From Clostridiales bacterium (GTDB lineage: Bacteria > Bacillota > Clostridia > Christensenellales > Borkfalkiaceae), in the NCBI GenBank assembly GCA_015069565.1, contig SVIJ01000002.1, forward strand, positions 1-64,000: a stretch of 64,000 nt of DNA. Direction: 5' to 3'. The position numbers were made by a program, and so were the translations under genes. Positions 5,622 to 60,150 of this stretch are shown in pieces. Below the pieces are notes generated by a model that was not told where the DNA came from, searched no databases, and saw only the letters and a program-made list of their open reading frames with translations. Within the stretch, counting starts at the first letter, position 1; each line of letters starts with the position of its first letter.

Positions 5622-5757
5622 GATGTGGCAGGGCGTGGGGCTTGCTCTCGCCGAAGGTGGGGGAATAGTTGTCCTGACGGACAAGCGAGATTACGCCTGC
5701 GGCGTAGCGATATTTGCCCAAATGGGGAACGGTAGCTTTAATGATTATAGGTGCGTT

Positions 5758-7473: not shown

Positions 7474-7686
7474 GTGAATTGAAAACCGTCGGTTTTCGTG
7501 AATTGAAACTGCGGTTTCGTGAATTCTCGCTGACGCTCCGTGAATTGTTTGCCTATGGCAAACGTTGCGGAAAAATTTATAATAATTCGATAACGCAAGG
7601 CAACGCCTTGCAATTCACGACGGCAAAGCCGTCAATTCACGCGTTTGTAAAACGCAATTCACGATTGCATATGGCAAGCAATTCAC
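7474..7686. repeat. Family A modular hairpin repeat (GTGAATT/AATTCAC cassettes), copy 1
   Basis: Left GTGAATT-separated hairpins, a CAAGGCAACGCCTTGC core, then right AATTCAC-separated hairpins. Confidence 0.85.
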
Positions 7687-7812
7687 TTTACGCTTGCCGT
7701 CCGAGATCCTTCGGCTACGCTCAGGATGACAAACAGGGGAGCTGTGCTCAGGATGACAATAGGGGCGCAGAAATAACAAGAACGGCGAAGGGATAGAACC
7801 TAAAAATCAAAG

Positions 7813-12295: not shown

Positions 12296-12325
12296 AAGCA
12301 AGCCGTTTGGCTTGCTTTCTTTTAT
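12296..12325 (+). terminator. Terminator hairpin (copy 2)
   Basis: AAAAAGCAAGCC-GTTT-GGCTTGCTTTCTTT. Confidence 0.7.
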
Positions 12326-12849
12326 TCTTCGGGGGAGTAAAAACAGTCCAGTTCCCAACGCAAAGGATTTTCCGCAACGTATTTTGCAATGTTTTCATAA
12401 TCGCTTGCGTTGCGAATGATATGGTCGTGGTAGCCCCGTTGCCATACGTGCGCTACTCCAAATTTTTGGCGGATTTGTTTTGACGCATTCATTTTCACAT
12501 AACCGATTGCTTTGGATATTTTAGAGCGCGTTTGCTCCCGTAGGGGCGATTCACGAATCGCCCGCGCATCTTCCGTTTCGGATATTATTAAAATAATGTG
12601 AATATGGTTGGGCATGATAACGTATCCGTCTACGGATAATGAAAAACGCGTAGATAGCTGTTCAATATAATATTGAACGATTTTTCCGTATTCGGTCAAC
12701 TCCGTTTCGGGCGATTCGTGAATCGCCCCTACGATGCGACTGAGCGTCTTTTGCTTTTGATGAGTGCAGACGGTGATAAAATACGCGCCTGGGGTGCTGT
12801 AATCATAATCTTGTAAGCGTAAACGCTTGCGTTTTAATAATTCTTTCAT
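12322..12849 (-). mobile_element. REP-associated tyrosine transposase (RAYT, IS200-like Y1)
   Basis: GAYFITVCTHQK, MPNHIHIILI (HUH), ARFGVAHVWQRGYHDHIIRN-like C-terminal region typical of the REP-associated Y1 transposases. Confidence 0.85.
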
Positions 12850-12856
12850 ATTCGTT

Positions 12857-13531
12857 TTATTCGACGGCGACGACGGTGAGCGTATCCCCGACAACGCGGA
12901 ATTTGACGTTTTGCGCGCCAAATGCCATGCCGTATATACGCTCTGGCTCGTCTTGGTAGGACGGGCGGGGGTCTTCCGCCAAACAATCTATCAGCCCTGC
13001 CAGCTTTTCGGCAGGGATTTTTTCTTTCGCGCCGTCTAAAAATTCAACGCTGAGCCGCTTATTTGCAACGCCGTCCGCATAGCCGCCAACCGCGCCTATA
13101 ATGCAATCCGCGTGGGGCAGGTATGGCTTGACGTCCAAAATCGGCGTTCCGCTGAGCAAATCCGCGCCCCCGACAAGCAGGCTGATCCCCTGCTCCGTTT
13201 TCTCAACCTTCAAGAGCTTGACAACGCTCAATCCGATGCCGTTCGGGCGGAAGGGGGAACGGCTTGCAAACACCCCTACGCGCGTGTTTCCGCCCAGCCT
13301 TGGCGGACGGACAGTGGCATGAAACTCCGTCGTTTTTGCCGCCGAAAAATCAAACAGCAGCCAAAGATGGGAAAAGCCGTCGATGGCTTTGAATGCGTCT
13401 TCCGTTTGATAGGGCGGATAGAAATGAATACGGCTTATTACCCCGTCCGCTTTGCCGCTCTGACGGGGAATGCCAAACTTTTCCGTGAAATCGTTTTCGA
13501 TATAGCCGATGGCTGATACTGTCTTTTCCAT
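12857..13531 (-). CDS. trmO: TrmO/TsaA-family tRNA methyltransferase
   Basis: IGYIENDFTEKFGIPRQS, RPPRLGGNTRVGVFASRSPFRPNGIGLS, DVKPYLPHAD. Confidence 0.88.
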   Translation of the reverse strand: MEKTVSAIGYIENDFTEKFGIPRQSGKADGVISRIHFYPPYQTEDAFKAIDGFSHLWLLFDFSAAKTTEFHATVRPPRLGGNTRVGVFASRSPFRPNGIGLSVVKLLKVEKTEQGISLLVGGADLLSGTPILDVKPYLPHADCIIGAVGGYADGVANKRLSVEFLDGAKEKIPAEKLAGLIDCLAEDPRPSYQDEPERIYGMAFGAQNVKFRVVGDTLTVVAVE

Positions 13532-30156: not shown

Positions 30157-30218
30157 GTGAATGGAACGCTGTGCGTTTGCAAAACGCAATTCACGATTGC
30201 CGTAGGCAATCAATTCAC
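30157..30218. repeat. Family A repeat, short copy
   Basis: gtgaatg...GCGTTTGCAAAACGC-AATTCAC-GATTGCCGTAGGCAATC-AATTCAC. Confidence 0.8.
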
Positions 30219-30267
30219 ATATAAAAAAGGAAGGTCCAAAGACCTTCCTTTTTTGTTTTACTTTCGC

Positions 30268-31461: not shown

Positions 31462-31681
31462 GTAGGGCGGGGGCTTGCTCCCGCCGTGAACGATAGTTGT
31501 CCTTACGGACAAGCGCGATTACGCTTATGGCGTAGCGATATGTTTGCTGTTGGCAAACGTTGTGGGGGAATTTATAATAATTCCATAACGCAAGGCAACG
31601 CCTTGCAATGCACGACGGCACAGCCGTCAATTCACGCGTTTGTAAAACGCAATTCACGATTGCCTACGGCAATCCATTCAC
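31462..31681. repeat. Composite repeat: GTAG-headed REP-like element followed by family A copy
   Basis: GTAGGGCGGGGGCTTGCTCCCGCC then TTGTCC-TTAC-GGACAA, then family A units to AATTCAC at 31681. Confidence 0.75.
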
Positions 31682-31730
31682 ATATAAAAAAGGAAGGTCC
31701 GAAGACCTTCCTTTTTTGTTTTACTTTCGC

Positions 31731-38468: not shown

Positions 38469-38476
38469 GTAATCAC

Positions 38477-38656
38477 AACTAAAAGATGCACGGTACGGCT
38501 GATAAGCGCAGCCGTTTAATAGGGAAACGAGTATTGCTCTGCTACCCCCGTAACCGTAGGAATGCTTTGCCCCTTTTCATTGTCGAAAGATGAGAAGAAA
38601 GGGGGCAGGTATGCGATGAACGCATACAAGGCGTTGTAAGCCGGGAGACCTGCCGA
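38477..38656 (+). promoter_or_regulatory. Cobalamin (B12) riboswitch
   Basis: AATAGGGAAACGAGTATTGCTCTGCTACCCCCGTAACCG core; B12 box AGCCGGGAGACCTGCC (38639-38654) pairing with GGCAGGT. Confidence 0.88.
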
Positions 38657-38748
38657 AGAAAAACAATAGTTTTTTGCGTCTTTACCACCCTTTTGCGGGG
38701 ATGCGAAAGAAGGTGCGCTAAGCCACGTTTTGCCGTGGCGGTTTTGCG

Positions 38749-39242: not shown

Positions 39243-39428
39243 GTGAATGGAACGCGTTGCGTTCGTGAATTGTCGTTGACGCGACGTGAATTGTTTGCCT
39301 GTGGCAAACGTTGCGGTAGAGTTTCAATGTTTCCATAACGCAAGGCAACGCCTTGCAATTCACGACGGCTGTGCCGTCAATTCACGCGTTTGAAAAACGC
39401 AATTCACGATTGCCTTGCAATCATTCAC
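39243..39428. repeat. Family A hairpin repeat inside the B12 operon
   Basis: 3 left hairpins, CAAGGCAACGCCTTGC core, 3 right hairpins. Confidence 0.85.
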
Positions 39429-42878: not shown

Positions 42879-43088
42879 GTGAATGGAACGCGTTGCGTTC
42901 GTGAATTGAAATCTACGATTTCGTGAATTGTCGCTGGTGCGACGTGAATTGTTTGCCTATGGCAAACGTTGCGGAAGAATTGAAATTTTTCCATAACGCA
43001 AGGCAACGCCTTGCAATTCACGACGGCGTTGCCGTCAATTCACGCGTTTGCAAACGCAATTCACGATTGCTACAAGCAATCCATTCAC
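42879..43088. repeat. Family A hairpin repeat, most complete copy
   Basis: Four left hairpins separated by GTGAATT, central core, three right hairpins separated by AATTCAC, end CATTCAC. Confidence 0.88.
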
Positions 43089-48695: not shown

Positions 48696-48730
48696 ATATA
48701 AATTGCAAGGCAACGCCTTGCAATTTATAT
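48696..48730. repeat. Family A core-only hairpin (16-bp perfect stem)
   Basis: ATATAAATTGCAAGGC-AAC-GCCTTGCAATTTATAT. Confidence 0.85.
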
Positions 48731-60051: not shown

Positions 60052-60150
60052 GTGAATTGATTTGCCTTGCAAATCGTGAATTGCCGCACAAGCGGCGTGA
60101 ATTGTTTTCCTTTGGAAAACGTGAATTGTAAGGCAACGCCTTACGTTATG
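60052..60150. repeat. Family A hairpin repeat copy
   Basis: GTGAATT-GATTTGCCTTGCAAATC-GTGAATT-GCCGCACAAGCGGC-GTGAATT-GTTTTCCTTTGGAAAAC-GTGAATT-GTAAGGCAACGCCTTAC. Confidence 0.85.

Follow-up and report, generated by a model that had tools for sequence, protein, structure and literature searches.

Proteins of the S23/IVP family (23S rRNA intervening-sequence proteins, PF05635) have been known since the 1990s and, to our knowledge, have neither an assigned function nor a ligand. In Leptospira and Coxiella, genes of this family lie between inverted repeats within 23S rRNA intervening sequences (IVS) proposed to be mobile, and the G661 IVS likewise carries degenerate heptads at both ends. The S23 protein of X. 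campestris (2gsc) is a homopentameric torus (PMC4990558). Avd, the accessory protein of diversity-generating retroelements, has the same four-helix-bundle fold, and its homology to IVP has been stated (PMC10053308). In addition, 23S rRNA IVP is listed among CRISPR-associated genes (PMC10910872).

Here we analyzed Family A, a hairpin repeat found in a 64,000-nt stretch of Clostridiales DNA (the window). Like the REP/BIME repeats associated with RAYT transposases, Family A is modular, reaches a high copy number, and has intergenic hairpins with a conserved short motif on the 5′ side, but it lacks their GTAG/GGAG foot tetranucleotide, uses GTGAATT and related separators with four units per half, and shows no correlation with RAYT. 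Compared with the 23S rRNA IVS, its separators alternate with hairpins and many copies are gene-less; all examined copies are intergenic, between protein genes, whereas a classical IVS interrupts a 23S rRNA gene and is cut out by RNase III. Unlike in Avd systems, no reverse transcriptase, template, or variable repeat was seen at the IVP loci read. The 7-nt tandem units beside four-helix-bundle genes on Nostoc plasmids may correspond to the cyanobacterial heptanucleotide repeats (STRR); these plain heptads have no hairpins, unlike Family A. In the open-licence literature, we found no report linking heptad arrays to S23/IVP.

Results

Two half-units make up the dyad of a Family A element. In each half-unit, the 7-nt separator GTGAATT occurs four times, every copy preceding a hairpin, and a fifth heptad, GTTRYGG, closes the half towards a short centre. 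In the complete element at 7474–7686, direct reading places the left half-unit at 7474–7570 (+), with GTGAATT at 7474, 7498, 7519, and 7540, hairpins at 7481–7497, 7505–7518, 7526–7539 (an imperfect CTCGCTGACGCTCC unit), and 7547–7563, and the terminal heptad GTTGCGG at 7564–7570. The mirrored right half-unit, at 7588–7686 (−), has the terminal heptad CGATAAC at 7588–7594, hairpins at 7595–7611, 7619–7633, 7641–7655, and 7663–7679, and AATTCAC at 7612, 7634, 7656, and 7680. The copies most similar to this element are 84–94% identical across most of its length. A second complete element, at 42879–43088, has an intrinsic terminator-like hairpin on one side and the upstream region of the next gene on the other. 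At 39243–39428, three left and four right separators remain, one left unit being absent, and at 30157–30218 an internal deletion has fused hairpin 1 into hairpin 7 and retained the last two right units. The copy at 60052–60150 (+) is a lone half-unit with four GTGAATT separators, four hairpins, and the terminal heptad GTTATGG. The copy originally delimited as 31542–31681 was extended by reading to an approximate start at 31501; at 31501–31681, it is a hybrid of GCGATAT-type left units and a GTGAATT-type right half, joined via GTTTGC..GGCAAAC-GTTGTGG. A probable partial GCGATAT-type array with the heptads GCGAGAT and GCGATAT lies at 5660–5740 (+), with approximate limits.

The original prediction had listed six multi-unit copies and a core-only stretch, and their sequences and coordinates agree with ours, as does its description of one modular architecture with stems fixed by position and free loops. 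It had not recognized the half-unit, the fifth heptad, the other separator types, or the association with a four-helix-bundle gene. The membership of the core-only stretch (48696–48730) is unproven: it has one stem in common with the family and no separators, and the related genome G051 has a complete element at the corresponding position between genes. Several other features accompany the copies. The stretches at 30219–30250 and 31682–31713 are a common downstream sequence, ATATAAAAAAGGAAGGTCC(A/G)AAGACCTTCC, with a terminator-like hairpin; because both copies carry it, the elements at 30157–30218 and 31501–31681 were probably duplicated jointly with that terminator. Other dispersed repeats, GATCCTTCGGCTACGCTCAGGATGACA and GCGGGGGCTTGCTCCCGC, adjoin elements (window 7705–7731; L211 flanks). 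The sole Rfam match within the window is a Cobalamin riboswitch (RF00174, 63.4 bits) at 38474–38671 (+).

Exactly four separators were present in 186 of 256 halves, which come from loci mostly selected via the GTGAATT pattern, so that separator-type frequencies in this set are biased. It had been proposed that unit number differs between copies through gain or loss of cassettes; the near-invariant 4 + 4 count argues against this, and departures from four look like decay, with the exception of some arrays in other genomes. The fifth heptad occurs as GTTATGG, GTTGTGG, GTTGCGG, or GTTAAGG, and the terminal heptad matches R-Y-D-R in 150 of the 186 halves against a background of 9.5%. Half-units usually face each other (52 pairs, 16–126 bp apart); a back-to-back arrangement occurs in 5 pairs and a tandem one in 11, and many halves are single. 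In one MAG (Tb.RUG.108), the right half precedes the left at four loci (L053, L091, L113, L121), with an AT-rich centre of ~42 bp between them. An imperfect unit (CTCGCTGACGCTCC, TTCGCTnnGCTCA) recurs at many loci in several genomes and replaces a hairpin at varied positions. When sequences were scanned without bias for hairpins that alternate with a repeated 7-mer, GTGAAGT, GTGAAAT, GTGATTT, GCGATAT, ACGATAT, and TCGATAT separators also emerged, and shuffled sequence had no such arrays. The left and right halves of one element can differ in separator (L067, L009).

Whole-stem swaps with pairing kept, as originally noted, were borne out by a statistical covariation test: among 17 own-genome copies, both sides of the stem had changed in 36 of 48 hairpin pairs, compared with 13.2 in shuffles, and sliding the hairpin columns by 1–3 gave at most 20 compensatory pairs; 93% of cells pair. 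The copies fold well, with z-scores of −6.3 as RNA (7474–7686) and −7.8 as DNA (42879–43088). The long duplex proposed earlier, in which left separators pair with right ones, folds well but lacks covariation support, because separators hardly vary, and single half-units exist. This near-invariance is as expected for sequence recognition. No Rfam 15 family matched the elements at gathering score, consistent with the earlier view that the repeat belongs to no named family.

The own-genome assembly (1.27 Mb, 83% complete) contains 165 matches to the pattern GTGAATT-N9..24-GTGAATT and none to its reversed control. Three exact separators in a row occur in 17 of 57 genus genomes, and the wider GTGAWNT form in 34 of 57 (control 0); across 396 genomes of the order, the strict form was found in 4 of 142 genera. 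The named carriers are Clostridia MAGs, mostly with ruminant-gut isolate names. Strict-pattern matches in Bacteroidota, Rossellomorea, Tychonema, and Stieleria were set aside, as they have no hairpins; some of them are plain heptads and may be distantly linked to Family A, but no IVP gene was found at these loci. A viral origin was also rejected, both pattern matches in the viral contigs scanned being unrelated direct repeats. Separately, two unannotated phage-labelled records encode an IVP homologue, and in L393, one of the two, GTGATAT-type arrays lie upstream.

Elements are never inside genes, occur in both orientations, and are patchy among species. They avoid divergent intergenic regions and lie at a median of 75 bp from gene 3′ ends and 136 bp from starts, by gene calls from our own hexamer model. 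As in MITEs, the copies are short, gene-less, dispersed inverted repeats with exact ends. In the best pair (L205, 975–1186 and 12491–12702), the copies are 95% identical exactly from GTGAATT to AATTCAC, their flanks are unrelated, and no direct repeat or target-site duplication is visible at the ends. Such exact ends and unrelated flanks of dispersed copies indicate that Family A is mobile. The search for empty sites and target duplications gave no clean case, and no recombinase was found with the elements. Two element sites are common to the window genome and G051, with aligned flanking genes ~83% identical; at one of them, most stems differ while separators and flanks agree, and both in-place change and repeated insertion would fit.

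In relatives, elements with longer centres enclose a four-helix-bundle, Avd-like gene of PF05635. The G051 element at L257 (15252–15833), with four left and four right units, encloses an ORF of 117–131 aa of this family, and at both L257 and L296 the GTGAATT arrays that flank the IVP gene on both sides are the same inverted arrays as in Family A. The G051 protein matches 2rld (1.2e-30), and its model (mean pLDDT 74.7, no alignment) has a fold matching 2rld, 2gsc, and, more weakly, Avd (4dwl). The family is common across the class and has 28 matches, 27 above cut-off, in 21 of the 57 genus genomes. Reading of the flanks by eye finds arrays on one or both sides of most of the 28; many of these loci fail strict detectors, which find arrays at 11 of 24 by one and 8 of 24 by another. 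In other families, a strict detector found arrays at 16 of 40 deliberately picked multi-copy IVP loci, compared with 0 of 27 control genes, 0 of 13 transposase loci (Y1/RAYT), and none in shuffles; in a separate subset, the best-scoring PF05635 matches, arrays occurred at 0 of 23. Searches for an IVP gene found none in the window copies, the own genome, or G050 (93% complete), and these two genomes are array-rich. MAG gaps or later loss may account for this. As no IVP gene was found there, the own-genome copies may be relics or may depend on a gene absent from the 83% complete assembly.

At L357, L362, L363, L367, L374, L376, and L379, in other Clostridia families, arrays start directly after a terminator-like T-tract (TTTTTTCAA followed by TGAAAT). 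A four-helix-bundle gene lies between hsdS and hsdR on a Monoglobus plasmid (L390) and between cas2 and cas1 on an Anabaena cylindrica plasmid (L403). The latter may bear on the listing of IVP as CRISPR-associated.

Protein clades pair with different separators, including GTGAATT, GTGAAGT, GTGAAAT, GTGATAT, GCGATAT, GCTAAAT, and ATGATGT. On a 48-protein tree, with types assigned by hand and near-copies among the loci increasing the clustering, separator type requires 9 changes (minimum possible 8) against a shuffled mean of 32.6, with 0 of 200 shuffles as low; host family requires 24. Separator types recur in different host families in step with the protein clade. Because the motif changes together with the protein, these comparisons suggest that the separator is what the IVP protein reads.

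In cyanobacteria, spirochaetes, and Bacteroidota, plain tandem heptads in inverted orientation border the IVP genes on both sides, and plasmid homologues of Nostoc, Anabaena, Dolichospermum, Euhalothece, Treponema, and Bernardetia are so placed. Among 17 plasmid homologues, period-7 repeats occur in either flank of 15 and in both flanks of 11; periods 4–6 and 8–12 were found in none, nor were repeats found in shuffles. Of 105 IVP loci, 13 exceed the threshold at period 7 and none at any other period. The most frequent run length is five heptads, seen in 16 of 60 flanks, and longer runs reach 28. A universal heptad consensus for the plain arrays was dropped, as a free reading phase makes a chance fit expected.

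Discussion

We consider it likely that Family A is a non-autonomous (MITE-like) derivative of a four-helix-bundle/heptad-array element, with separators that are sites of the cognate IVP and hairpins set between the heptads. It is presented as a presumed derivative rather than a full member because the window copies and their genome have no IVP gene. The gene-bearing form would consist of an array, an S23/IVP gene, and an inverted array. The 7-nt separators would be putative sites at which the cognate IVP recognizes single-stranded RNA or DNA in a sequence-specific manner, and the hairpins would loop out between IVP subunits, leaving stems free to change provided that pairing persists. Four separators plus GTTRYGG would provide five heptads per half, one for each subunit of a pentameric IVP ring. 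Gene-less copies could be mobilized in trans by IVP, with a moving form that is presumably single-stranded.

The window itself contains a RAYT-like gene at 12322–12921 (−; REP_Tyr_transpos, NF047646, E 1.2e-21, slightly below cut-off), and hairpin repeats are typical RAYT substrates. Nevertheless, a REP/BIME-like repeat mobilized by this transposase is very improbable. At a score above 50 bits, only 3 of 57 genus genomes have a RAYT-like match, and the array-rich G047, G050, G051, G022, and G006 are not among them; the gene's own coding sequence holds two GTAG-led palindromes of another type (GATTCACGAATCGCC and GATTCGTGAATCGCC); and arrays are absent near the 13 Y1/RAYT loci scanned. A RAYT/IS200 mover is thus strongly disfavoured, as the presence of arrays does not follow that of RAYT genes. 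An ordinary MITE of a DDE or tyrosine recombinase, merely often beside IVP genes, would have the exact ends and dispersed copies observed, and no recombinase has been identified; this is unlikely, as no target duplication was seen and arrays vary together with IVP from family to family and between phyla.

The strong fold, the covariation, and the extragenic placement closer to gene 3′ ends than to starts could also point to a host structured RNA or transcript-end element (stabilizer, attenuator, or terminator). We give this little credence, because copies are mobile, lie in both orientations, are patchy between species and absent from genes, and fold alike on both strands by symmetry, while an Rfam match is absent and the copy at 42879–43088 comes after a terminator-like hairpin. 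Free loops, wholesale stem change, chimeras, and replaced stems at orthologous sites are what one would see if the repeat were a neutral quasi-palindrome, its pairing maintained by template-switch repair in hairpins and neither structure nor protein recognition under selection. Such repair may be a route of stem change, but as a full explanation it is highly unlikely, since it accounts neither for the near-fixed four units and invariant separators nor for the tracking of IVP clade by separator type.

Extending the derivation of Family A from an IVP element, we tentatively propose, at somewhat less than even probability, that S23/IVP rings represent a widespread class of recombinase-less elements. 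A pentamer would read five single-stranded 7-nt motifs per end, each clade would have its own heptad code, hairpins would be insertable between the heptads, and the plain heptads of cyanobacteria and other phyla would belong to the same system.

Finally, a clade-specific heptad code beside the gene offers a concrete candidate ligand for S23/IVP. Such a link would bring together two kinds of repeat, intergenic hairpins and plain heptads, with rRNA intervening sequences and the retroelement Avd proteins.
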